In this document: positions 40,963-55,989 of the stretch, one piece after another | Position numbering within the stretch: the first letter of the stretch is position 1 | Layout of the letters: every line of letters starts with the position of its first letter | DNA from: an uncultured Bacteroidota bacterium | Lineage (GTDB): Bacteria > Bacteroidota > Bacteroidia > Flavobacteriales > Flavobacteriaceae | NCBI GenBank assembly: GCA_902535165.1 | Contig: CACASE010000002.1 | Coordinates: forward strand, 1 to 64,000 | Length of the DNA stretch: 64,000 bases | Reading direction: 5' to 3' | Notes under the pieces: generated by a model | What the model saw: the letters and a program-made list of their open reading frames with translations, nothing else | Database searches by the model: none | Told to the model about the DNA's origin: nothing | Translations under genes and position numbers: made by a program

Positions 40963-41685
40963 CTAATCTGTTTTAAATGAATAAACAATAGAGTAGCTAC
41001 TATTAGTTCCATCACTTGTTTTAACTCTCCAATAATATGTTGAACCTGCATCAAGAGCAACATCAACAGTTTTATCAGATAAATTTGTAAGTTCACTTGA
41101 TGGCGTTTGTTTACCATCAGTCTTATCAACATACAAAGTATATTTTAATTCATCCCCTTGATCGGGATCAGATCCTTCCCAGGTGAATGTTACTTTACCA
41201 TCAGAGGATCTAGATACAGTTGAACCAGAACTTGGTGATTTTAAGTCAGCTGGAAAGGGGGCATAATTTTTAATTCCTAGTCCTGCTAAATAAAACTTCC
41301 AAGATGTACTTGTACCTGTTTGAGTAGTAGTAGTATTTTTTGAAATTACTTTCCAAATATATGGCTGACCTTTATCTAATTCAACGGTTGTGCTAGTTGT
41401 CGTTAACCCATTCTTATTTACAACTGATGAAGTATTCAAATTAGTAATCTGTAAATCATATGTACTAGTATTGGAAGATGCTTGCCAAGTAAAATCTACA
41501 TTACTTTTGGTGTCAGAAGTACTAGTTCCTGTCTCACATACTTTCCCGTTAGCTGGAGCTGTCAAAGTTACAGCGCCCGGTGGCTGAGGTGGTGGTGGAT
41601 CACCTCCTCCATCACCTGAATCTCCTCCATCTCCACTACACGAGAAAATAAAAAACGCTGTGAGTAAATAAATAATTTTTTTCAT
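40963..41685 (-). CDS. Surface lipoprotein with two FN3-like domains
   Basis: A 240-residue protein. The signal ends in lipobox FIFSC (Cys16), followed by a flexible Gly/Asp/Pro linker (residues 17-36: DGGDSGDGGGDPPPPQPP). Two fibronectin-III-like units follow (about 37-130 and 145-240), each with a Trp-x-x-S/G core and a TYxWxV strand (QPYIWKVISKN; STYYWRVKTSD). Such units often space or bind glycans on the cell surface. Its ATG overlaps the GH5 stop codon (ATGA), so it is translationally coupled to the enzyme gene. Confidence 0.75.
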   Translation of the reverse strand: MKKIIYLLTAFFIFSCSGDGGDSGDGGGDPPPPQPPGAVTLTAPANGKVCETGTSTSDTKSNVDFTWQASSNTSTYDLQITNLNTSSVVNKNGLTTTSTTVELDKGQPYIWKVISKNTTTTQTGTSTSWKFYLAGLGIKNYAPFPADLKSPSSGSTVSRSSDGKVTFTWEGSDPDQGDELKYTLYVDKTDGKQTPSSELTNLSDKTVDVALDAGSTYYWRVKTSDGTNSSYSIVYSFKTD

Positions 41686-44600
41686 TCTCTAATTACTTTA
41701 AAGGTTTTTCTAACTGTTTTACTTTCTAAAACAACTATATATGATCCAGGTATTTGATTTGTTAGATCTATATTCGTTTTTCTAGACATATCCGCTATAT
41801 CCTGAAATCTGCTGTAAATTAAATCTCCCTTCTCACTAAAGATATTAACTTTTACTCTAGTATCCTCCCCTCCTACATGTACTTTTACATCACTATCAGT
41901 CGGGTTTGGATAATAGTGAATATCCTCTGATATAAATACCTCTCTCTCTACAAAACCTTGACACTCTAAATCTGTGTCTACTCTTATAATGCTTAGCCCT
42001 GTAGATAGAGTTGCTTCAAAACTGTTTCCAGTAACTTTTTGTTTGATTCCATTGATCGTTACATTGTATTTGCTAGATCCACTCATCTGGATGCTTGCCT
42101 TTTTATCATCATTATCAATATCAATAAATGCTGTGAGTGCTGGTGGCTCCTCTACTATAACCTCAAAACACTGCTCATAGTTAGCCTGACCATCAACTGT
42201 AAAGCAAACCTCATAAGTACCTTTAGTAAGGCCGGTGACTGAAGCAGTTTTGTTTGTTCCCGTTATTACGACGTTATCCTTGCCAGTAATTGTAATTGTG
42301 TAGTCGTATGATGCGTCTTCCACACTCAAGTCTATCACTCCATCACTATTGCCAACACAAGTAGCGCTACCAACCTCAACCTTAAAATTGTTCACAGGAA
42401 GCTCAAAAATCTGACAACCATTTACATCAACCTTAGCACCAGAGGGAGTGTCAGGACATTGGTCAACTGAATCTCCAATACCATCTAAATCAGAATCTAA
42501 ATCTCTAAATTTCATCCAGTTCATATTAAAACCCCCATCCAGAACTTTAAGTCTGAGAAGAAATATTCCCTTAGGTATTGGATTATTAAGACTTGCTGTT
42601 ACGGTTACCCATTCTTGCCAACCACCAGTGGAGGAAAAATCAACTTCGGGCAACAAAACGTACTCCCTTGAGGAATTCTGTTCAACTAAAGATAATGCCA
42701 CTTTTCCTCCATTAGACTCAGATGCAACTCTAAAATCAACTGTATATTTTGAGGCGGTGTTTGTAAAAATTTTATAATCAGCATAATCACCATTATCAGT
42801 ATATCCAATATTTGAACCCCCTCCTTCATCATTTGTTTCTTCTAATCCTAATCCAAACATATTAACATAGTCTTCAACTTCAACCTTTCCAGGTATAACA
42901 AAACGTGCTTCTAAATCGTTAATAATGTTGAGGTTTGAAAAGGTATTTAAAGTTTTTCCATTTACAGACTTAATTAAGTCCCCAGAGTATGAAACTTTAA
43001 TATCATCAGTATAAAGTAAGTTTTCAGAAAGATTTAAAATAATTGTTTTAAGTTTAGAGGAATCTGAATTAAGAGAGGATATACTCTTTTCATTTCCGTT
43101 AACAGTAACAGTAAATTTATTCAAGCTACCATCAATTGATGAAGTCAATATTTCTTGATTTAGAAAAATCTCTAAGGACCTTTCATTAGAATTAGTTTTT
43201 CCATTAATAGAGTTAAATGGAGCTGCTGATATCTCAGCTGTTTTCTCAAATTGTAGACTGCTAATATTAAACGGGGTATTATCGTCAAAATGTAATTTCA
43301 AAGAATGGTTTCCTTCTTCTAATATTAAACCTTCAATTGTTGATGTACCAAAAGAAAACCAACTTCCAGTTGATTGGGTAGTATAAATTGGTGTAATGTT
43401 TTGATCATTTAAAGATAAATAAAGCTTTCCCCCGCTCTGCTCTGAAGCATTTCTAATCCTGACTCTGTAAACACCCGATGAATTAATTTTTACAGAATAT
43501 TTTGTCCACTCTCCTTTTTCAACAAATCCGATGTGATATCCATTGCTATTAACATTATCACTATTATCTTCAATATCAACTCCATCATTTCTGTATCGCC
43601 ATCCTCTGTTCCATGCAGTAAATGATCCGGATGACTGATGATAAGTTGCAAAATCATTGTCATGGTAAGCAAAATTATTTTTACCCAAATCGTAATCAGA
43701 TAAAAATACTACACCAGGGATTTCTTGGCGTTTTTTAAAAGGTATCGTATTATTTGAATGGGGTTGTCTAAGAAGTGCATCAGAGATACCCTTTCTGTAT
43801 AAGCAATTTTCTGATTTAGCATTTTCAGCTAATTCCATCATTGCTTCATAAGCTTCTTGTTCTGTTGGTTTATCACCTTCATCTTTCCAGTAGTTTAGAA
43901 TTTTTTGATAACCATCGTTAACAATAATTCTGTATGGGCTATTTACACTTCCAATTTTTTTCATAGCCCACCATGCCCAACCTACATTATTGTTTTCAAA
44001 TAAAGTGACAGCATCTGTATACCAGGTATTTGAATTTTCTCCAGACTCACCCATCCACAATGGTACATTGTGTTGTTCTCTCATTGGCAGAATCCAGTTT
44101 AAATCATCGTCATTTGTTGAATTCCAGTATTTATGAAAACTGTATACCATGTTGTCATCCCAAGGAGGAGTCAATCCTGTAAAATTATTTGCATAATCAT
44201 TTCCTTCAATGATTATTATGTGTTTATCATCAACTTCCCTGATAGCATCTGTGATTCGTACAAATAAATCCTTTAAATCAACTCCACCTGGAAGATCCCA
44301 ATTTGTTTCATTAAGAAGATCATATCCACCAATCCACTCATTGTCTTTATACCTTTCAGCAATTTTTCTCCACAGTGCAACTGTTTTACTTTTGTTTTGT
44401 TCGCTTTCCCAGAGGGAGGGTTTATCAGGATCATAGTCTGAGATATCAGTATTTCTGCCTTGACCACCAGGTGCAGCATGTAAATCTAAAATAACGTACA
44501 TTTTATGAGGTTGAGCCCATTCTAATATGTCATCAATAATTTCAAAACCTTCATCAAACCATGTATTTTCACCAGAATTAGGTTCTTCTTGAATTGGTAG

Positions 44601-44957
44601 AGTGAATAAATTGTAGTGCATTGGGACTCTAATACTATTAAATCCCCATGAGGCTAGTGAATCAACATCTCGCTTAGTAAAATGATTTTCTCTCCACTTT
44701 TTAAAAAATTCATCAGTCTTTTCATCGCCCATCAGATCTATTAATTTTTCCTTAATCTCATGTTGAGCACCAATACTTCCATCAGTTTCATGCATCATGT
44801 AACCTTCTATCAATAGCCAACCACCAGGTGCATATCCTTTGAGTAAAACCTCATTTCCATTTCCATCAACAATTTTTTGACCGTCTGTCCTTAAATTTTG
44901 AGAATTAGAAAAGAATGAGAAAAAAACAAATAAAATTACAATTAAAAATCTCTTCAT
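41682..44957 (-). CDS. Multidomain GH5 beta-glucanase with two CBM6-like modules and T9SS sorting domain
   Basis: A secreted 1091-residue enzyme. The signal peptide covers 1-20. The GH5 catalytic domain (about 24-375) has the acid/base Glu217 in DLLNET and the nucleophile Glu304 in WMGES. CBM6-like modules lie at about 415-572 and 684-818, with an Ig-like segment between them (575-680). A thrombospondin-3-type Ca repeat (820-848) is followed by Ig-like repeats and a type A T9SS sorting domain (about 1010-1091, beginning YYPNPTDSD). The ATG at 44957 is chosen over an extension to 45155 because it starts the signal peptide, 1 bp after the GH3 stop. A beta-1,3- or beta-1,6-glucanase role fits the locus but is not proved. 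Confidence 0.88.
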   Translation of the reverse strand: MKRFLIVILFVFFSFFSNSQNLRTDGQKIVDGNGNEVLLKGYAPGGWLLIEGYMMHETDGSIGAQHEIKEKLIDLMGDEKTDEFFKKWRENHFTKRDVDSLASWGFNSIRVPMHYNLFTLPIQEEPNSGENTWFDEGFEIIDDILEWAQPHKMYVILDLHAAPGGQGRNTDISDYDPDKPSLWESEQNKSKTVALWRKIAERYKDNEWIGGYDLLNETNWDLPGGVDLKDLFVRITDAIREVDDKHIIIIEGNDYANNFTGLTPPWDDNMVYSFHKYWNSTNDDDLNWILPMREQHNVPLWMGESGENSNTWYTDAVTLFENNNVGWAWWAMKKIGSVNSPYRIIVNDGYQKILNYWKDEGDKPTEQEAYEAMMELAENAKSENCLYRKGISDALLRQPHSNNTIPFKKRQEIPGVVFLSDYDLGKNNFAYHDNDFATYHQSSGSFTAWNRGWRYRNDGVDIEDNSDNVNSNGYHIGFVEKGEWTKYSVKINSSGVYRVRIRNASEQSGGKLYLSLNDQNITPIYTTQSTGSWFSFGTSTIEGLILEEGNHSLKLHFDDNTPFNISSLQFEKTAEISAAPFNSINGKTNSNERSLEIFLNQEILTSSIDGSLNKFTVTVNGNEKSISSLNSDSSKLKTIILNLSENLLYTDDIKVSYSGDLIKSVNGKTLNTFSNLNIINDLEARFVIPGKVEVEDYVNMFGLGLEETNDEGGGSNIGYTDNGDYADYKIFTNTASKYTVDFRVASESNGGKVALSLVEQNSSREYVLLPEVDFSSTGGWQEWVTVTASLNNPIPKGIFLLRLKVLDGGFNMNWMKFRDLDSDLDGIGDSVDQCPDTPSGAKVDVNGCQIFELPVNNFKVEVGSATCVGNSDGVIDLSVEDASYDYTITITGKDNVVITGTNKTASVTGLTKGTYEVCFTVDGQANYEQCFEVIVEEPPALTAFIDIDNDDKKASIQMSGSSKYNVTINGIKQKVTGNSFEATLSTGLSIIRVDTDLECQGFVEREVFISEDIHYYPNPTDSDVKVHVGGEDTRVKVNIFSEKGDLIYSRFQDIADMSRKTNIDLTNQIPGSYIVVLESKTVRKTFKVIRE

Positions 44958-44958
44958 A

Positions 44959-46767
44959 TTAAAGTCCAAATCCAACATCAAATAGTAAATCACTTGTTTT
45001 AGCATTAGCACCTTTCTCTGCTTGTATTGGCCAAGGATATGAGAGTCTCCCTGTCGATGGATAATCTCCAAATAATATATCTGAAACGCCATCTCCCTCA
45101 CTTCCTGGTAACCATATTGCAGCAAACCCATCCCATTCATCAATATGATCTGCAACGTTCATTGGCCTGCCGGAGATTAAAAGAACAAATACTTTATATC
45201 CTTTATTTTTTAGCTGATTAATTGTATCAATATCCTCTTTTAATAAATCAAGACTGTCTTTGTCGCCGAAAAACTCAGTATAAGGATCTTCTCCAATTAC
45301 TACAACTGCTAAATCACCACTAACTGAACTTAAATCTGAGCCATCTTTTGAGTAAATAACATTTGTGTCAACTGAAACAGAATTATTTATTCCATCCAGA
45401 ATTGTTTTACCGACGGTGATATCACCCTGGCCACCTTGCCAATTTATTGTCCATCCTCCACATTGCATTCCAAGATTATCTGCTCCTCTTCCAGCAACAA
45501 TAATTGAACTAATTTCCTTAGAAATAGGTAGTAGTCCATCATTTTTCAAAATAACAACACTTTCCCTTACTGCTTGCCTTGCAATATCTCTATGTTTTTC
45601 AGAACCAATAATATCCAGTGATTCATTTGTAACAAGAGGACTGTCAAATAGTCCATTACTAAATTTTACTTTCAAAATCCTTTTTACAGCATCATCAATT
45701 CTTGACATTGGAATTGATCCTTCCTGAATACTTTCCTTTAATAGCTTCATGAATTTTTTATAAGGTTGACCTTGCCCTGAAACCATAACCATATCTATTC
45801 CAGCATTGATTGAAGTAATTATATCAGATTTGTAATCTCCTGGAATTTCATCAATTCCTTGCCAATCTGAAATAACAAAACCTTCAAAACCTAATTCAAT
45901 CTTCAAGATATCAGTGAGTAATTCTTTACTACCATGACATTTAATCCCATTCCAGCTATTATACGATGCCATTACTGTTTGTACGTTAGCATCTATTGCA
46001 GCCTTATATTTTGGCAATAATTTTTCTTTGAGCTCCTCGCTGGTCAATATTGTATTTCCTCTGTCAACTAAACCGTTCATTCCAGTTCCAAATTCTGTAT
46101 TTCCATCCCCTATAAAATGTTTTGCGCAGGCAATCACCTTTTTACCAGTTTCTGTTTCAACGCTTTGATATCCTTCAACTGCAGCGGCACCTAGATTTTC
46201 AACAATATTTGGATCACTTGAAAAGCCTTCATAAGTTCTTCCCCATCGATAATCTTCTGGAGATGACAAACAAGGAGAGAATGTCCAATCAATTCCAGTT
46301 GCAGCAACCTCGAGTGATGTAGCTTTAGATATTTCATAAATTAATTCAGGGTTATTTGTAGCACCAAGACCAATATTCTGAGGAAAAATTGTAGCTCCAT
46401 AAACATTGTTATGACCATGAACTGCATCAATTCCATAAACAAGTGGTATACCTAATCTATTTTTCAACGTTTCCGATTGATATTTGTTATACATATCTAA
46501 CCATGCTTGTGGTTCATTAACACTTGGGTGTGACCCACCTCCACTTAATAACGATCCAATGGAATATGTTGAAAGATCTGTTATTGTATCTAAAAATCTT
46601 TGATCAATTTGGGTCATTTGACCTACTTTTTCATCAACAGTCATTTGATCAATTATTTCGTCAACCTTTTTTTCAATTTGAATATCGGAGAGATTGGTTT
46701 TACTTTCGCAATTAATAAAAAGTGAAACCAGAATTAGAAGAAAAATATTTTTTTTAAATGTGTTCAT
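44959..46767 (-). CDS. GH3 beta-glucosidase/exo-beta-glucan hydrolase, lipoprotein
   Basis: A 602-residue lipoprotein (lipobox SLFINC, Cys20). The (beta/alpha)8 domain carries KHFIGDG (216-222) and the nucleophile Asp301 in VISDWQG. The second domain has GEDPYTEFFGDKDSL, where the Glu corresponds to the acid/base of barley exo-beta-glucan glucohydrolase, so this is the exohydrolase type without an FN3 tail. It would release glucose from laminarin oligosaccharides. Start ATG at 46767 avoids overlap with GH16; an extension to 46803 would run into it. Confidence 0.92.
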   Translation of the reverse strand: MNTFKKNIFLLILVSLFINCESKTNLSDIQIEKKVDEIIDQMTVDEKVGQMTQIDQRFLDTITDLSTYSIGSLLSGGGSHPSVNEPQAWLDMYNKYQSETLKNRLGIPLVYGIDAVHGHNNVYGATIFPQNIGLGATNNPELIYEISKATSLEVAATGIDWTFSPCLSSPEDYRWGRTYEGFSSDPNIVENLGAAAVEGYQSVETETGKKVIACAKHFIGDGNTEFGTGMNGLVDRGNTILTSEELKEKLLPKYKAAIDANVQTVMASYNSWNGIKCHGSKELLTDILKIELGFEGFVISDWQGIDEIPGDYKSDIITSINAGIDMVMVSGQGQPYKKFMKLLKESIQEGSIPMSRIDDAVKRILKVKFSNGLFDSPLVTNESLDIIGSEKHRDIARQAVRESVVILKNDGLLPISKEISSIIVAGRGADNLGMQCGGWTINWQGGQGDITVGKTILDGINNSVSVDTNVIYSKDGSDLSSVSGDLAVVVIGEDPYTEFFGDKDSLDLLKEDIDTINQLKNKGYKVFVLLISGRPMNVADHIDEWDGFAAIWLPGSEGDGVSDILFGDYPSTGRLSYPWPIQAEKGANAKTSDLLFDVGFGL

Positions 46768-46783
46768 AATATAAGTTTTAAAT

Positions 46784-48379
46784 TCATTGATAAACTCTAA
46801 CATAATCTACCTCCATAGTATCAGAGACAAAATCTGATGGAACATTACCACCAAAAGTTCCTCCCATTGCTATATTTACTATGATAAAAAAGTCCCAGTT
46901 AAAAGGTAAAGAGCAAGCATTTCCAACAATGTGATAAGGTTTATCATCAACCAAAAAGGTCATTCCTTTTTCTGTCCAAACAATTGAGTAAACATGAAAC
47001 TCTGTTGATACATCATCATAGTCATATGTTGCACCGCCATCTCCTGAACCATAATTATCGGGGTGATGAGCAGTTGCTTGAATTTTATTTAATCTGTTAC
47101 CAGCATGTTCCATGATATCTAACTCACCACACTTAGGCCAATCGATTTGATCATAGTTAGAGCCTAAAAGCCATAGTGCTGGCCATGTACCTTTCTTGCC
47201 TGGAAGTTTTGCCCTTATATCTACTCTACCATAAGTAAAATCAAATTTTTTATTTGTTTTAACTCTTCCTGATGAAAATTGTTTTCCTCCATAATTTTCT
47301 CTTTTAGCAATAATTTTTAGGACACCATTTTCAACTAACACATTATCAAGCCTGTCAGTGGTTGCCTGCAGCTCTTGATTGTACCATTGATTTCTTATTT
47401 CGTAAACCCATTTATTAGAATCTAGTTTTCCATTATAATTAAACTCATCAGACCAGACTAAATTTGTATAAATTTTGTGAGATGGAGTCGTACTTATCTC
47501 TTGATCAGTTAACCAAACATACCAAGCTACATTTTGATTATCAACAGATCTTACAAGAATATTTTTTGAATCATAACATTCAATTGTAAATTCATGCTGA
47601 CCAACAAAAAAACCAATAAAGCCTTTATCGTTAAATTTTAGTTCATTATTACCATTATTTTTATTAACTGTAAATGTTGTTTGATAATCGTCCAATTTAT
47701 ATTTTTCAATTTCATTACTAGAATTAATATTTTGACCTGTATTACCAAATGTTTGTATCAAATAGGTAGCTTTTCCGTAAATGTCACCATTAGTTTTGTG
47801 TATATATGTACCATCATTTTTAAACGTAAACTCATCATCATAAAAACCTGAATTGGCTTTAGAAAATGAAGATGCTTTCCAGTAAGTAGAGTATTTATAT
47901 TGACTTGCTCCGTTTGCAAAGTGAGCATCATATGAAGCATTTATTTTCCATGTTTTTTCATTACCTCCTGTTAGTATTTTAAGGATGTCATCATCTGAGG
48001 TTGCCTCAACATAAACAACAATAGTTTTTGCAGAACTTATAAAATCACCTGAAGTTGAATAAGCTAGCACATTAACCGTATACGATTTTGTTCCAAATTC
48101 AGTATATGTATATTCAACAGATCCAGATGAAGAGTCTTGAACCTCACCTGTCCCAAACCTAAAACTGTAATTCACCGCGTCTGTTGCACTTGCAGTAAAT
48201 TTTACGACACCTGAGCCATCACCATACGGCTCTTCATCTTTTATACCTGCAATTTCAACGTTAAAAACTAAATTTGATGGAATGATTTTAACTGGTGGTG
48301 GATCAATATTATCTACATCAACATTCGAATCACTAGAGCATGAAATAATAAAAAAAATAAGTAAAAATATTTTATGCAT
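46784..48379 (-). CDS. GH16 endo-beta-glucanase (laminarinase type) lipoprotein with N-terminal PKD and glycan-binding-like module
   Basis: A 531-residue lipoprotein (lipobox IISC, Cys14). A PKD-like domain (about 36-127) and a second module (132-293) precede the GH16 catalytic domain (about 303-531). The catalytic motif is ELDIME with Glu419, Asp421 and Glu424; the EIRNQWYNQELQ and GTWPALWLLG segments support a beta-1,3-glucanase. Residues 36-293 are homologous to almost the whole of the neighbouring binding protein at 48461-49366. It would cut surface laminarin for SusCD import. A hairpin lies 14-59 nt upstream of the ATG. Confidence 0.93.
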   Translation of the reverse strand: MHKIFLLIFFIISCSSDSNVDVDNIDPPPVKIIPSNLVFNVEIAGIKDEEPYGDGSGVVKFTASATDAVNYSFRFGTGEVQDSSSGSVEYTYTEFGTKSYTVNVLAYSTSGDFISSAKTIVVYVEATSDDDILKILTGGNEKTWKINASYDAHFANGASQYKYSTYWKASSFSKANSGFYDDEFTFKNDGTYIHKTNGDIYGKATYLIQTFGNTGQNINSSNEIEKYKLDDYQTTFTVNKNNGNNELKFNDKGFIGFFVGQHEFTIECYDSKNILVRSVDNQNVAWYVWLTDQEISTTPSHKIYTNLVWSDEFNYNGKLDSNKWVYEIRNQWYNQELQATTDRLDNVLVENGVLKIIAKRENYGGKQFSSGRVKTNKKFDFTYGRVDIRAKLPGKKGTWPALWLLGSNYDQIDWPKCGELDIMEHAGNRLNKIQATAHHPDNYGSGDGGATYDYDDVSTEFHVYSIVWTEKGMTFLVDDKPYHIVGNACSLPFNWDFFIIVNIAMGGTFGGNVPSDFVSDTMEVDYVRVYQ

Positions 48380-48392
48380 TTGACCTTAAATT

Positions 48393-48438
48393 AAGAAAGA
48401 GTTTGGAAGAAGTTAAATTCTTCCAAAACTCTTTTCTT
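48393..48438 (-). promoter_or_regulatory. Intra-operon hairpin between binding-protein and GH16 genes
   Basis: The arm AAGAAAGAGTTTGGAAGAA (48393-48411) pairs with 48418-48438 across a 6-nt loop, with two single-base bulges. On the transcribed strand it lies about 22 nt after the binding-protein stop and is followed by a weakly T-rich stretch and then the GH16 ATG. It may act as an attenuator or partial terminator, or as a 3' stabiliser for the upstream mRNA. Confidence 0.6.
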
Positions 48439-48460
48439 ATACATAACAAATATTAATTTG

Positions 48461-49366
48461 TTAATTATCGTTAGTAATAATCCAAAACCATCCTAAACCA
48501 CCCGATCCAACTGTTCTAAGGACCATTCTATTTGATGATCTGGATAAAATAACATAATCATGTGAACCTACATAGAATCCCATGAAACCTAATCCTGAAA
48601 AATTAATCGTCTCAACACCACCAGGAGCTGAAATAGACCATGAAGTTTCAAAACTTTCATATGGATAATTTGTATACTCATTATCTCCATTCCTGGTTTG
48701 ACCACGATCACCACCCAAATCTGCATCCATTGGATCTGCTTTTCCAAAAATTTGTCCGTCAGGACCTACATCAAAACCAAATTTACCATCTGAATGGAAT
48801 GTATATCTATCGTCATACATTCCAGTTGAAGCTTTATCATATGGGTTTGCTCCCCACCACCATGGCTCTGGTGCATCCGAAGGTCCAACACCCATATGTC
48901 TCCACTCTTCAGCTTTAACCCTCCATGTTCCAGTTGTTAGCGCAGAAACAAGTGCAGCAGGAGGACTGTAGGTAACTAATACCTCAACTGTAACAGCAGT
49001 ACTCGATGTGGTACCACCTTTTCCAATAGCAACAATTGTAACTGTATATTTGTTTAACCCTAATTTTGAAAAAGTATACTTAACATTTCCATCTGGGCTT
49101 AATGTTTCTTGTCCATCATAAACAAATTTATATGTAATTGCATTATCTGCTGAACCTGAAAAATTAACTTCTCCCGAACCATCACCATTCGGGTTATCTG
49201 TGTCTACTCCAACAATACTAGCTGATATCTGAACATTAGTTGGAGCAGTAATATCACCAAATGAGTATTCGTCATCCTCAGCAAAACTATCGATTTCGCA
49301 GCTTACAGAAACAAAAATTGTTAGTGAAGTAATAAAGATTTTTAATAGTGTATTAAATTTTTTCAT
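48461..49366 (-). CDS. PKD-containing surface glycan-binding lipoprotein, paralogous to the GH16 N-terminal half
   Basis: A 301-residue lipoprotein (Cys23 after VSVS). It has a PKD-like domain (about 42-130) and a module at 137-300 with three adjacent Trp residues (169-171), GMYDDRYTF (182-190), GFMGFYVGSHDY (260-271) and a Trp-rich end. The same pattern occurs in the GH16 enzyme (178-186, 253-264, 284-293). It lies in the SusE position of the PUL. Binding of beta-1,3-glucan is inferred from locus and aromatic content. Confidence 0.8.
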   Translation of the reverse strand: MKKFNTLLKIFITSLTIFVSVSCEIDSFAEDDEYSFGDITAPTNVQISASIVGVDTDNPNGDGSGEVNFSGSADNAITYKFVYDGQETLSPDGNVKYTFSKLGLNKYTVTIVAIGKGGTTSSTAVTVEVLVTYSPPAALVSALTTGTWRVKAEEWRHMGVGPSDAPEPWWWGANPYDKASTGMYDDRYTFHSDGKFGFDVGPDGQIFGKADPMDADLGGDRGQTRNGDNEYTNYPYESFETSWSISAPGGVETINFSGLGFMGFYVGSHDYVILSRSSNRMVLRTVGSGGLGWFWIITNDN

Positions 49367-49385: not shown

Positions 49386-51467
49386 TTAATATTGAGTTAT
49401 ATCGTCAATGTATATGGTAAAGTTTGATGAACCATCTCCCATAGTTCCATTATCCATAAACATTACAAGATTATACCATTCAACTGATGAACTAGCTCCT
49501 GAAAAATCATATGTTAAAACCTCCCACTGATTTGCTACAGTAGATGTAGCAGTAACCTCAGCAGTGGCAGTTGTATTTGGCCAACCAACGGCATCTTCAA
49601 ATTTCATCATAAAATTTAGTCCAACTCTTGGCGACCATACTTTAACTCTTAGTTTACCTTCAGAATCCAACTTAAACTTGTCAGTAACTGTAAATTTATG
49701 ACCACCCCAAGTTTGACCAGAATTCTTGACAAGTTTTAGTACTTTGTCAGATGAATTTCCGCTCGTATCAGGGTTATCAATGATTTCTTGCGCTCCACCG
49801 TCAAATCCTGATAGACTTCCAGCATCTTCAAAACTTGAAATTAAAGTACCTGGCGTAACTGTAGAGCTTCCTGAAATAAATAATTCGATATCATCTAAAT
49901 GATATGTTCCAGTATCTTGTTTTCCACCATCAATGAAGAAAACCAATTTTTTAAAATCAGCAGTACCGTCCCAAGCTCCGCCAGGATTTGGCCATGCTTG
50001 AGCAGTTACAGTTGAAAAATCAAAAATTAAAGTGTTCCAACCTTTTGATGAAAAGTTTTGTTTCAACTCAATGTATTCATTATCATCACTTTGTTCTAAT
50101 TTCATCATGAGCTCATGAGTATCTGCTGTTGGGTTATATATTTTTACAGAGTAAGCATTATTCCCACCTTGAACAATCTTAATTGGATTATCCAATATGA
50201 GTTCAGCAGTTTCCCAATCATTACCGCCATTTGTTACTTTACCTGTATTATTTGAGGAATTATCAGGGTCTTTTGAAATTTCAAAAGATGCTCCACCTAC
50301 CCCGCTAAATGGTTCTTCTTTATCAAAATAAATTGGAAGTCCAACTGGGTTGTCTTTCCAAAAGTAAATATTGTCTAAAAAGACGTCAGCTTGAGCCCAT
50401 TGATCAACACCTTCAAATTTAAACTGAAATAAATCACCCAATGTAATGCCTTGGCTTGTCCATTCAGTAAGAGGAATATCTAAGCTTGTCCATTCGTCTT
50501 TTTTCAACTCTTTAACAACAGCGACCTCTCTGGGATTTGCATCTCCAGGTTCTCTAATCAAAAATGTTTTGAGTTGATTAAGATTTGCTGTCCAGGCATC
50601 AATATGCAAGTATTCCATACTCGACATATCAGTTTTTGCATATTGAACACCTTGATAACTTATTTTTGAGTAATGAGTTATTTTATCTCCGTTCAAATCT
50701 AACTCATTGTATCCGCTTCCTTGCCACATTTGACCCCAATCAGGATTCATATTTACATCAGCAACCGATGTGTAAGCATCACTAAATATTGAAACTACAG
50801 TGCTTGATTGTCTGCTTGGTGGTGTAGGAGCAGAAACAGTCGGTGCTAAAATTGCAGTAACTTCAAATTCCTGAGAATATTCTGTAGTTGCAATTGCAGC
50901 ACCTCTTGCAACAACTTTAACAGTGTAAGTGCCAGCTTCTTTATATGTAAATGATGCTGTTTCACCAATATTGGCAGTTACAGGATCTGCACCAGCTTCA
51001 CCAGAAATAAAATCAAAAACTGTTGCCCAATCAGCAGTCGCGGTTACATTAACCTTTTTTGAAACATTTGTATCATTTTCAATTGTAACCTGCAAATTTT
51101 CAGGAGCATTGAATGATACAATTAGAGAAACATCTGCTGTAGTTGTAAGATTATTTAATCCAGTAGCAGTTACTTTAATTGTATGATTACCTTCTTTGAA
51201 AGTATGTTTAACATTTCCTCCAGATTTAATTGAAGATGAGACAGGGGATCCGTCACCATAATCAATTACAAAACTAATCGCACCCTCACCTGTTGGTGTA
51301 ATAGTAACTAAACCTGTATTGTCCTGCGTAATATCAAAAGATGCAGAAACATTACTAGGTGGTGCAATATTCTTAGCAAATTCATTGTTATCGCTAAAAT
51401 CTTCATCACATCCAACTAAGAAAAAGATGATGAAAATAGAACTTAAAATTTTATATATATTTTTCAT
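49386..51467 (-). CDS. Large surface glycan-binding lipoprotein (SusE/F-position) with PKD and CBM-like domains
   Basis: A 693-residue lipoprotein (lipobox FLVGC, Cys20). Two PKD/Ig-like domains (about 37-118 and 120-206) are followed by three CBM-like beta-sandwich units (about 215-365, 370-540, 545-693), the last two sharing 'F-E/D ... ELMMKLE/NFMMKFED ... FDFS ... YHLDDIELF/IYIDDIT' patterns. It probably holds beta-glucan chains near SusCD. The ATG at 51467 is preferred: a TAAAAA stretch precedes it at suitable spacing. ATG at 51473 is an alternative. Confidence 0.82.
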   Translation of the reverse strand: MKNIYKILSSIFIIFFLVGCDEDFSDNNEFAKNIAPPSNVSASFDITQDNTGLVTITPTGEGAISFVIDYGDGSPVSSSIKSGGNVKHTFKEGNHTIKVTATGLNNLTTTADVSLIVSFNAPENLQVTIENDTNVSKKVNVTATADWATVFDFISGEAGADPVTANIGETASFTYKEAGTYTVKVVARGAAIATTEYSQEFEVTAILAPTVSAPTPPSRQSSTVVSIFSDAYTSVADVNMNPDWGQMWQGSGYNELDLNGDKITHYSKISYQGVQYAKTDMSSMEYLHIDAWTANLNQLKTFLIREPGDANPREVAVVKELKKDEWTSLDIPLTEWTSQGITLGDLFQFKFEGVDQWAQADVFLDNIYFWKDNPVGLPIYFDKEEPFSGVGGASFEISKDPDNSSNNTGKVTNGGNDWETAELILDNPIKIVQGGNNAYSVKIYNPTADTHELMMKLEQSDDNEYIELKQNFSSKGWNTLIFDFSTVTAQAWPNPGGAWDGTADFKKLVFFIDGGKQDTGTYHLDDIELFISGSSTVTPGTLISSFEDAGSLSGFDGGAQEIIDNPDTSGNSSDKVLKLVKNSGQTWGGHKFTVTDKFKLDSEGKLRVKVWSPRVGLNFMMKFEDAVGWPNTTATAEVTATSTVANQWEVLTYDFSGASSSVEWYNLVMFMDNGTMGDGSSNFTIYIDDITQY

Positions 51468-51477
51468 ATTCATTTTT

Positions 51478-52935
51478 TTAATAACCTGCATTTTGTGTTA
51501 AACCAGAAATATCAATTTCTGTCTGTGGTATCGGGAAAACTTCATGTTTACCTGCTACAAAACCAGAAATTTCATTTGGTGCTTGGCCTGTCCTAACTAA
51601 ATCAAAAAATCTTTGACCCTCACCAGCAAACTCCAATCTTCTTTCATCCCAAATTGCTTGGGTCAAAGCTGATCCAGTTTCATTAATAGATGAAACGCCT
51701 GCTCTACTTCTAACTTGATTAAGGTATGTTTGAGCTTTTGAATCACTAATTCCTCCTCTGTTATTAGCCTCAGCTGCCATCAATAATACATCAGCATATC
51801 TTATGTATCTATAATTATTCTCATAATTAAGCTCAGTTGTATTTTTTGAGTATCCAGCTCTAGGTATATATTTATTATTAAAATATCCCGTATGCTCATA
51901 GCCCTCGTTATAACTTGCTGAATTTGCATCAGCCCAAGCTACAATGTCAAGGATTGAAGCATTTTTTCTTTTATCGGCTGAATCATAAGCATCAACTAAA
52001 TCTTGTGTTGGAACATTAAAGCTCCAACCTGAAGAATAAACTGGTCCATTATAACCTCTAATTCCATGGTGAATAACTCCAAAATTACCCTCCGTACTTT
52101 GAGGCATCCATCCCCAGTTCCATCCATTAGACTCTTTGGAGTGCTGAATTTCAAATACAGACTCTGGTCCATTTTCACCCTCTACTAAAAATACACTACC
52201 AGGATCTGAAGGTAAGGTATATAACCCGATTAGTGGTTCTAAGATATTGGCAGCTTCAGCAAACTTTTCTTGATATAAATAAACTTTACCTAACAATGCA
52301 TGAGCTGTAAAGGAAGTAGCTCTCCCGTCTGCACTTTTCTTCGCAGGAAGAGCTGCAATTGCTGCAAGTAAATCAGATTCAATAACAGAATAAACCTCAC
52401 TCTTTGGTACTCTTTGAAGTGTGCCAGAGTCCCCTGCAGTCAATCTTCCATTAGTAAATAAAGGAACATCACCATATATTTTTACCAACTCAAAATAGAA
52501 GAATGCTCTTAGGAAATGTAATTCACCATACATTTCATCTTTCCTTGGAAAATCAATTTTATCTTTATTTTCAACCATGTAATTAGCCCGATTTACGCCC
52601 TCATACATGTATTGCCAAATTCTTTTTAATTGATCATTTACAGGGTCATGAATCATATCATCAATTTTTTGAAGACCAATCACATCGCTAGCACTTTCAC
52701 CTCCACAAAGTGAATTATCAGATGCAATTTCACCAATCATAAAGTTGTATAAAGTCCATTGTAGAACATCATAGACACCTACAAGTGCTGATTCAAAGTC
52801 ATTTGCAGACTTAAAATAATCATCAGCGACAATTTGATAACCTTCAGATGCTTCATAATCTACGTATTCATCGCAACTTTGTGCAAAAAATAGTAGCGAT
52901 ACAATTATTAAAAATTTATTAATTAAGTTTTTCAT
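51478..52935 (-). CDS. susD: SusD/RagB family nutrient-binding outer-membrane lipoprotein
   Basis: A 485-residue lipoprotein (lipobox AQSC, Cys21). It has the N-terminal SusD-like region (DYFKSANDFESALVGVYDVL), TPR-like helices and the C-terminal signature YRYIRYADVLLMAAEA ... YLNQVRSRAGV ... IWDERRLEFAGEGQRFFDLVRTG found in the RagB/SusD family. It forms the lid of the SusC channel and binds the oligosaccharide. It lies 9 bp downstream of susC. Confidence 0.95.
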   Translation of the reverse strand: MKNLINKFLIIVSLLFFAQSCDEYVDYEASEGYQIVADDYFKSANDFESALVGVYDVLQWTLYNFMIGEIASDNSLCGGESASDVIGLQKIDDMIHDPVNDQLKRIWQYMYEGVNRANYMVENKDKIDFPRKDEMYGELHFLRAFFYFELVKIYGDVPLFTNGRLTAGDSGTLQRVPKSEVYSVIESDLLAAIAALPAKKSADGRATSFTAHALLGKVYLYQEKFAEAANILEPLIGLYTLPSDPGSVFLVEGENGPESVFEIQHSKESNGWNWGWMPQSTEGNFGVIHHGIRGYNGPVYSSGWSFNVPTQDLVDAYDSADKRKNASILDIVAWADANSASYNEGYEHTGYFNNKYIPRAGYSKNTTELNYENNYRYIRYADVLLMAAEANNRGGISDSKAQTYLNQVRSRAGVSSINETGSALTQAIWDERRLEFAGEGQRFFDLVRTGQAPNEISGFVAGKHEVFPIPQTEIDISGLTQNAGY

Positions 52936-52944
52936 TTTTATTTA

Positions 52945-55900
52945 TTAAAATTTAACATTTAATCCAACTGAAACAGTTCTAGGACTTGGGTAATTACCCC
53001 TGTCAATACCTGTGTCTAATACGCCGTATGACATCTCAGGATCATAGCCAGTATAATCTGTAAATGTCATAAGGTTTTTTCCTTGTAAATAGAGTCTAAC
53101 AGCATCTAAAACCTTAGAATTAGTTACATTAAAATTATACCCTAACTGAACATTCTTTATCTTAAAATAAGATCCATCCTCAACATATCTTGTCGAAGGT
53201 CTTACGTTATTGTTAGAATCCACAAAAGTAGCTCGTGGTTCAAAGTTGCTAGTACCCTCACCAGTCCATCTGGCTAAGACACTAACTGGCTTATTCGTGT
53301 AATTTAAATTTCTCTCATATCCTCTAAATATATCATTTCCAAACAATCCATAAGTGGTTACACTCAAATCAAAATTATATACATTTAAATTTAAATTCCA
53401 TCCAAGTGAAAAATCACCAAAAGGATCTCCAATTTTTGTTCTGTCATCAGCATTTACAACACCATCACCATTAACATCAACAAACCTTATATCTCCAGGC
53501 TGAGCATTTGGCTGCGTCGCATGGTTGTCAATTTCAGACTGATTTTGAAAAATTCCATCAGCTAGATATCCCCAAAATATACCTGGAGATTCACCCTCTT
53601 GAAATCTAACTAAATTATTGTAAGGAATTCCATACCCTGCTCCCCAAATATATTTATCACCATTTGCAATTTCTTTAACTAAATTATCAGCTGTTGTGAA
53701 ACTTATGTTAGTTTGAAATGAAATATCTTTAGACTGGTCACTCTTGAAACCTAAATTAACATCAAATCCAGATGTCTCTGTCTTTCCAATATTTGCTGAC
53801 GGATAATTTGGGGTACCCAAATAAAGTGACAACGTTGGATTAAATAAAAGGTCATCAACAGTCTTTTTATAATAATCAACTGTCAATGAAACATTAGAAT
53901 CAAACATTCTTAAATCAAATCCAATATTGGTTTGCTCCTGATTTTCCCATGAAACATCAAGGTTAGGGATACCATCAAGGGCAGATCCAGTTATTATGTT
54001 ACCACCAAATGTATATTTTGGAAAAGTTGTTATTGTCCCAAATTGAGAACTTGCGTTGTCATTACCAACCGAACCATAACTAGCTCTAATTTTTAAAAAA
54101 TTTATTGCATTAGAGTTAAAGAAATCTTCATTTGAAGCAACCCATCCTAAAGAAGCAGATGGGAAAATACCAAATTTATTATTTTGACCAAAACTAGTTG
54201 ATCCATCTCTTCTGACGGTTACCGAAGCTAAATATTTTTCGTTGTAATCATATTCTGCTCTTGCAATCATTGATACGCTTCTACCAACAAATTGAAAGGA
54301 TCCAGTACTTTCCTCGTCTTGAGGGCCAGTTGCTGAACTTAAATCTGCAAAAGTCCAAGAGTTAAAAGGAACACCAACTTTTGATCCTGAAACCTGGTTT
54401 CCAGTATTTTTTGCTATTTGAAATCCAGCAAAAACATTGAAATTATTATCATCAATTGAAAAGTTATAACTGGCGTTAATATCATACGTATAATTAAAAT
54501 AAGTTGTTTTACTTTCATTAACACTATTCCAAGTTTGGGTAACATTTCCATCAGCGTCCGTTGACGTTATTGGGCTAAGGTCAGCATTTGCATTAGTTGC
54601 ATTGTGACCAACACCATAAAATTGATAAGGATTAAAACCTTTAGATGTAATATTTACATATGTATAACCTAGTCTGGATGTAATTTTTAAGTCTTTTAAT
54701 AAATCATATTGTAGCTCAAACTTTCCTGAAATTGAATTTGTATTTCCAGCTCCATATGAGTTAGATATTTGAGCCACAGGGTTTTTTATTTCCTGGGTGA
54801 TAATGTTGCTAATTGCATAAGACCCGTCATCAGCATAAACGGGGGTTGTAGGCGACATATTTAAGGCATTAAAAATAATATCCCCAAGTCCACTGTCTTT
54901 TATGTTAGTATATCTATTACTAATTTTCATATTTAGCTTGCTTGAAAGATCCGTATCAAAATTTGCCCTGAACGTTGACCTATCAAAAAACTGTTTATCA
55001 CCTCCATGAATAATACCCTCTTGTCCAAGAAATCCAGCTGAAAGGAAATATGATGAATTATTCGTTCCACCCGACACAGAAATATTATTTGAAATTATTG
55101 GAGCATCAATTCTAAAAATTTCTTTTTGCCAATCAGTTCCATAACCTAAACCTGACAAGTCAGAATAAATCAGTCCTCCGCCAGATGTTAAACTCATTTC
55201 GTTTAGAATTGCTGCATATTCAGTTGCATTTAAAACGCCTATTGTTTTTTCTGGGGATTGTTCTCCATAAGATGTATTAAATGAAAATTTCGCCTCTTGG
55301 TTTCTAGAACCACTTTTAGTAGTAATCACTATGACACCATTACCACCTTTAACACCATATAATGCTGTGGTTGATGCGTCTTTTAAAACAGAAATTGACT
55401 CGATGTCAGAGGGTTCTAATGAATTCATATCGTCCAAGCTTTGGTTTATTCCATCAACGATGACTAAAGGATCATTCCCAGTGTATGATGTAACACCTCT
55501 AATAATTACCGTGGGCTTAGACCCAGGTGATCCATTTGAGAACATATTAACACCTGGAAGACCCTGCAATGCATCCTCCATTCTTACTGGTTTTAATTTT
55601 TCTACATCATCGCCTCCAACAGTTGAAACTGCTCCTGAGATATTCGATGCTTTTTGACTTACATAACCGAGGACAACAACTTGCTCTAGCGCTTCAACAT
55701 CTTCCTCTAAGGAAATAGAGATATTAAAAGAATCTGAAACAGTATACTCTAGGGTTTTAAAACCTAAGTAAGAAAAAACTAGAATATCACCATTATTTAC
55801 GCCGTCTAAGGAAAAGTTTCCATTGAAGTCTGTATTAGTTCCATTATTAGTGTTTTTTACTACAACATTTACACCGGGTAAAGGATCATTGTTAATGGCA

Positions 55901-55989
55901 TCTGAAACAGAACCAGTTATTGAACCTTCTTGAGCGGTCACTGTAAAAAACCCTATAAGCAATAGGAAGTTTAATATTTGACGTTTCAT
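52945..55989 (-). CDS. susC: SusC/RagA family TonB-dependent outer-membrane transporter
   Basis: A 1014-residue outer-membrane protein. Signal peptide 1-19; carboxypeptidase-D-like N-terminal domain about 22-95 (GSITGSVSDAINNDPLPGVNV at its start); plug domain about 115-225 with the SusC-type VVVLGYVSQKASNISGAVS and DPLVIVDGI motifs; then a 22-stranded barrel ending in aromatic VGLNVKF. It imports glucan oligosaccharides with SusD, powered by TonB. It is the first gene of the PUL operon, with a palindrome 32-51 nt upstream. Confidence 0.96.
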   Translation of the reverse strand: MKRQILNFLLLIGFFTVTAQEGSITGSVSDAINNDPLPGVNVVVKNTNNGTNTDFNGNFSLDGVNNGDILVFSYLGFKTLEYTVSDSFNISISLEEDVEALEQVVVLGYVSQKASNISGAVSTVGGDDVEKLKPVRMEDALQGLPGVNMFSNGSPGSKPTVIIRGVTSYTGNDPLVIVDGINQSLDDMNSLEPSDIESISVLKDASTTALYGVKGGNGVIVITTKSGSRNQEAKFSFNTSYGEQSPEKTIGVLNATEYAAILNEMSLTSGGGLIYSDLSGLGYGTDWQKEIFRIDAPIISNNISVSGGTNNSSYFLSAGFLGQEGIIHGGDKQFFDRSTFRANFDTDLSSKLNMKISNRYTNIKDSGLGDIIFNALNMSPTTPVYADDGSYAISNIITQEIKNPVAQISNSYGAGNTNSISGKFELQYDLLKDLKITSRLGYTYVNITSKGFNPYQFYGVGHNATNANADLSPITSTDADGNVTQTWNSVNESKTTYFNYTYDINASYNFSIDDNNFNVFAGFQIAKNTGNQVSGSKVGVPFNSWTFADLSSATGPQDEESTGSFQFVGRSVSMIARAEYDYNEKYLASVTVRRDGSTSFGQNNKFGIFPSASLGWVASNEDFFNSNAINFLKIRASYGSVGNDNASSQFGTITTFPKYTFGGNIITGSALDGIPNLDVSWENQEQTNIGFDLRMFDSNVSLTVDYYKKTVDDLLFNPTLSLYLGTPNYPSANIGKTETSGFDVNLGFKSDQSKDISFQTNISFTTADNLVKEIANGDKYIWGAGYGIPYNNLVRFQEGESPGIFWGYLADGIFQNQSEIDNHATQPNAQPGDIRFVDVNGDGVVNADDRTKIGDPFGDFSLGWNLNLNVYNFDLSVTTYGLFGNDIFRGYERNLNYTNKPVSVLARWTGEGTSNFEPRATFVDSNNNVRPSTRYVEDGSYFKIKNVQLGYNFNVTNSKVLDAVRLYLQGKNLMTFTDYTGYDPEMSYGVLDTGIDRGNYPSPRTVSVGLNVKF

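Follow-up and report, generated by a model that had tools for sequence, protein, structure and literature searches.

A module of the SGBP-B type shared by a stand-alone lipoprotein and the adjacent GH16 enzyme in a probable laminarin PUL of an uncultured marine flavobacterium

Laminarin, an algal sugar, is a major oceanic carbon store. One of the described proteins that hold it is the surface glycan-binding protein B of Bacteroides fluxus (BfSGBP-B), a lipoprotein of a beta-1,3-glucan PUL adjoining SusC/SusD, which is composed of a PKD-like domain and a C-terminal beta-barrel module, and which binds laminarins and mixed-linkage glucan (PMC7157763). According to their titles, its solved structures (PDB 7KV5, 7KV6 and 7KV7) comprise the protein by itself and its complexes with either laminaritriose or mixed-linkage glucotriose. 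The N-terminus of a Maribacter GH16_3 laminarinase consists of a PKD domain and a BfSGBP-B-like laminarin-binding domain (PMC11345257). Thus, both the fold of the module with a bound glucan and the architecture combining PKD, a BfSGBP-B-like domain and GH16_3 (PMC11345257) are already known. Here, we compare with these systems a window of 64,000 nucleotides (contig CACASE010000002.1, positions 1 to 64,000) from an uncultured member of the Flavobacteriaceae.

A row of genes on the minus strand of the window encodes SusC, SusD, a 701-aa surface protein, a 301-aa lipoprotein, a 531-aa GH16 lipoprotein, GH3, and GH5-CBM6. The SusC-like and SusD-like genes (51478..55989), the family names of which were given from their sequences, stand in an order that is conserved in related loci. 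The 701-aa protein in the SusE position (49386..51491) contains two PKD domains and C-terminal CBM4/9-like repeats. Its residues 384-536 matched PDB 8QX6 (E 3.7e-10), a 165-residue 'PKD domain-containing protein', and judging by this match they perhaps represent a further family of laminarin-binding modules. The open reading frames of the GH3 enzyme (44959..46803) and of the enzyme with GH5, two CBM6 and a secretion tail (41682..45155) were listed with starts that are probably too long; starts at internal Met codons followed by signal peptides (~46767 and ~44954, respectively) would remove the apparent overlaps of the GH5 and GH3 genes.

The two genes in focus were confirmed as minus-strand open reading frames. 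The stand-alone lipoprotein of 301 aa (48461..49366), assigned as the SGBP-B of a laminarin PUL from its open reading frame, a structure search, an AlphaFold model and Foldseek, is composed of a signal peptide with a lipobox (Cys23), a PKD domain (residues ~40-132) and a beta-barrel module of the SGBP-B type, similar to the C-terminal domain of BfSGBP-B (residues ~135-301, 48464..48967), recognized by the structure match and conserved columns. The GH16 enzyme of 531 aa (46784..48379), assigned from its open reading frame, Pfam and a structure match, has a lipobox at Cys14, a PKD domain (residues ~34-125), its own SGBP-B module (residues ~128-294, 47498..47998; structure match and profile) and a GH16 catalytic domain (residues 301-531, 46787..47479). 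The stand-alone protein has the same PKD-like domain and C-terminal beta-barrel module as BfSGBP-B, but the two share only ~20% identity and come from marine and gut bacteria, respectively, and, in contrast to the BfSGBP-B system, the window contains a second copy of the module inside a GH16 enzyme. As in Maribacter forsetii GH16_3 (P177_RS20320), a lipobox, PKD, a BfSGBP-B-like domain and a GH16 laminarinase domain are combined in the window enzyme; however, a second BfSGBP-B-like insert splits the GH16 domain of the former, the gene of which lies outside a PUL (PMC11345257), whereas the GH16 domain of the window enzyme is uninterrupted and its gene has a stand-alone SGBP-B as neighbour within a PUL. 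A 719-aa fusion found at another locus (L099:1953-4109) has a GH16 domain split by an insert (333-405 and 549-719), like the Maribacter enzyme of PMC11345257.

The preliminary description of this DNA had aligned the N-terminal half of the GH16 enzyme with the stand-alone lipoprotein by eye, and this likeness was confirmed over ~290 residues. In BLASTP, residues 7-299 of the 301-aa protein and 1-292 of the GH16 protein were 32% identical (150 bits, E 6e-46). The Smith-Waterman score of the whole segment was 390, as compared with a mean of 40 and a maximum of 79 in 300 shuffles, and the PKD part (158 versus a shuffle mean of 32) and the second module (240 versus 34) were each similar in their own right, also with 300 shuffles. 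All the motifs that had been quoted, GDGSG, G[FM]YDD[ER][FY]TF, GF[IM]GF[FY]VG[QS]H and a Trp-rich end, were found. The triple Trp of the stand-alone protein (W169-W171), thought to be special to this copy and to speak for different affinities, proved to be private only at W169. The counterparts of W170 and W171 in the enzyme are Y166 and W167, and both columns are aromatic in 100% of the stand-alone and fused copies. The argument for different affinities from the triple Trp thus fails. The aromatic positions that are conserved in the stand-alone protein include W148, W170, W171 and W293, which have equivalents in the enzyme. The groups differ at other columns (e.g., W243 versus F236, and F198 versus H194), and from the sequences a difference in affinity between stand-alone and fused copies is possible.

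In Pfam and NCBIfam scans, no model scored above its curated cut-off over the module (residues 135-301), which explains why it could not be named at first. However, sequence searches of solved structures led with both proteins to the same relative, BfSGBP-B: the stand-alone protein matched 7KV5/7KV6/7KV7, the only relative among solved structures, with E 5.4e-9, and residues 97-289 of the GH16 protein matched it with E 7.7e-10. The AlphaFold model of the stand-alone protein, built with 52 homologues (mean pLDDT 90.5), had the bimodular fold of BfSGBP-B, a PKD-like domain followed by a beta-barrel. Its first four Foldseek matches were the 7KV5-7 entries (E 4e-15 to 5e-13), and a structural aligner superimposed it on them with Z 20.1 over 227-236 residues; the rows that followed had Z of 10 or less and mostly covered the PKD part only. 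The rmsd of the whole-protein superposition was large, which, as far as a model can tell, is probably due to the two domains being set at another angle to each other. Moreover, as would be expected of an SGBP-B, the stand-alone protein is a lipoprotein (lipobox Cys23) encoded next to SusC/SusD in the gene order. Zuhlke et al. are said to have introduced in 2024 two laminarin-binding modules of the marine flavobacterium Christiangramia forsetii, CBM102 and CBM103, the latter reportedly linked to a GH16_3. The module described here may be CBM103.

The GH16 domain was recognized by Pfam (PF00722, E 8e-24). Its catalytic ExDxxE is intact, with the active-site motif ELDIME, and E419, D421 and E424 are invariant in 22 homologues. 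The top fold matches of this domain were laminarinases, and the closest solved structures were the complexes of Zobellia LamA with laminarin oligosaccharides. LamA of Zobellia galactanivorans (4BOW, 4BPZ, 4BQ1), a GH16 laminarinase, is ~38-40% identical to the window enzyme when compared by catalytic domain only, and the window enzyme adds PKD and the SGBP-B module to it. Judging by the sequences of these nearest relatives, the enzyme would be of the GH16_3 type.

Homology, fold, gene order, conserved aromatic positions and the intact catalytic motif form the basis of our functional reading: the window very probably contains a laminarin PUL in which beta-1,3-glucan is gripped by both an SGBP-B and a laminarinase, the latter through a module copy that appears to have been inserted, in the pelagic lineage, into a PKD-GH16 enzyme. 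We infer the ligand, the binding, the surface location and the division of labour between the two proteins from homology and anatomy. In this uncultured marine flavobacterium, the locus would be a laminarin (beta-1,3-glucan) PUL, with the 301-aa lipoprotein encoded beside SusC/SusD as its surface glycan-binding protein B. This protein would be lipid-anchored in the outer membrane, with the PKD domain as a spacer and the C-terminal beta-barrel module keeping beta-1,3-glucan close to the SusC/D importer. The GH16 enzyme would be a surface laminarinase of the GH16_3 type, and with a module copy of its own, located after an ancestral PKD and before the catalytic domain, it would grip the same chain that its catalytic domain cuts. 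Parts of the preliminary description agree with this: the shared architecture, the glycan-binding role and laminarin as the likely ligand are all supported, whereas the novelty of the module, its duplication with PKD as one unit, and the affinities read from the triple Trp are not.

If the module represented a novel glycan-binding domain unrelated to any described one, this would fit the lack of a Pfam or NCBIfam model covering it, but its clear match in both sequence and fold to BfSGBP-B, solved with laminaritriose and other bound glucan, together with the same homology already described in Maribacter GH16_3 (PMC11345257), make this highly improbable. The preliminary description had itself named a match to a well-described carbohydrate-binding family as evidence against novelty, and the Foldseek match of the stand-alone model to BfSGBP-B comes close to that. 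By sequence and predicted fold, the module is a known type of laminarin-binding domain, that of SGBP-B. As the identity to BfSGBP-B is only ~20%, its ligand preference could differ, and the module could mainly bind another glucan, such as mixed-linkage beta-glucan, beta-1,6-glucan or a brown-algal polymer, with laminarin being secondary. In favour of this, mixed-linkage glucan is also a ligand of BfSGBP-B and, as a trisaccharide, is present in 7KV6; it can be cleaved by GH16_3 enzymes; and the locus additionally encodes a GH5 + CBM6 enzyme. Nevertheless, we consider another main ligand unlikely, as laminarinases are the closest relatives of the catalytic domain, most of the related genomes are marine, and the gene content matches that of marine laminarin PULs: with GH5-CBM6 and GH16, the window fits variants C and D of the laminarin PULs described for North Sea flavobacteria (PMC6298971). 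With the unnamed module recognized as the laminarin-binding domain of SGBP-B, pelagic flavobacterial genes of this kind can be annotated as encoding laminarin capture proteins.

The way in which the module came to be in both proteins appeared to be less simple than the duplication of PKD and module as one unit that had been proposed. In the module tree, all pelagic fused modules (22/22) formed one clade (support 100/99) apart from the stand-alone copies, which rules out a recent duplication in situ and indicates that the pair of stand-alone protein and enzyme is old. When all pelagic fusions were forced together with the stand-alone copies as a whole, this tree gave p 0.043, and when they were forced together with the other fusions, p 0.013; it does not single out one stand-alone lineage as the donor of the fused module. 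To compare the PKD domains, we used two profiles, one of PKDs of module-free GH16 enzymes and one of stand-alone PKDs of the same genomes, both built without the fused sequences that were later scored. All pelagic fused PKDs (20/20) preferred the GH16-only profile (median 125 versus 68 bits), including that of the window enzyme (124.5 versus 70.2 bits), whereas the 19 stand-alone PKDs of the same loci showed the reverse preference. In fusions from other Flavobacteriaceae, however, 19/22 PKDs preferred the SGBP-B type. In support of the profiles, the PKD tree grouped the pelagic fusion PKDs with the GH16-only PKDs, and forcing the fusion PKDs together with the stand-alone PKDs was rejected (p 0.025), although trees of this domain comprise ~110 columns and the support of the key branch was moderate (89/71). 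The two PKDs thus belong to different lineages.

The domain order is the same in both proteins, which align from end to end, and in many other Flavobacteriaceae the fused enzyme carries a PKD of the SGBP-B type, as if the enzyme had received PKD and module together, as a single cassette copied from the stand-alone gene, with the PKDs diverging only later. For the clade of the window, such copying is improbable given the profile scores of its PKD, the position of the fusion PKDs in the tree beside GH16-only PKDs, and the rejection of the cassette grouping at the p value given above. Instead, as the PKDs of pelagic and other fusions are of different types, the same architecture, PKD-SGBP-B module-GH16, was seemingly built by two routes. 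In the pelagic route, the sequences make it appear that the module was inserted into an existing PKD-GH16 enzyme without loss of the stand-alone protein; many other Flavobacteriaceae seem instead to have joined a whole SGBP-B to GH16. Among the loci of the latter that were examined with flanking sequence, none had a full-length stand-alone copy adjoining the fused gene, and those fetched loci that reached upstream had a 500-700-aa surface protein directly before it. The tree of catalytic domains spoke neither for nor against the two-route history or a particular order of events. With this and the moderate branch support, we regard the origin of the architecture on at least two occasions by different routes as likely but unproven. 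A modest novelty is that a binding module seems to have moved between a capture protein and an enzyme along more than one path, and this points to recurrent selection for laminarin-holding enzymes.

The module is common: its profile had matches in 122/299 sampled genomes of the family to which the window belongs and in 51/395 sampled genomes of its phylum. The stand-alone gene lies directly beside a PKD-module-GH16 gene in 20/79 fetched loci, the window not being among the 20, and in many more of the 79 it lies beside a module-free PKD-GH16 enzyme. Genes for SusC, SusD and a large surface protein are usually located upstream, and the order SusC-SusD-SGBP-module-GH16 is conserved in dozens of marine genomes.

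At L021:4663-7242, the surface protein in the corresponding position has three tandem divergent copies of the module (85-101 bits), and one divergent copy each is present at L033:5999-7606 and L044:5994-7607. In Cyclobacteriaceae and relatives, a two-module version of the stand-alone protein (~490-550 aa) is encoded directly after SusD, without a separate large surface protein (L065, L066, L068, L069, L071, L072, L076, L079 and L080). In the window's own genus (L100:2391-3413) and in a near relative (L028:6948-7979), the stand-alone copy is ~341-344 aa long and an insertion breaks the module match. In the complete genome of Lacinutrix neustonica (L034), SusC is in three pieces, SusD is in two, and GH16 is a fragment; this laminarin PUL appears to be broken, and the sequence would fit either decay or sequencing error. 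A contig labelled as Euryarchaeota archaeon ARS96 (L010) carries the same flavobacterial PUL, with 87% module identity to the window, and is probably mis-binned or mislabelled.
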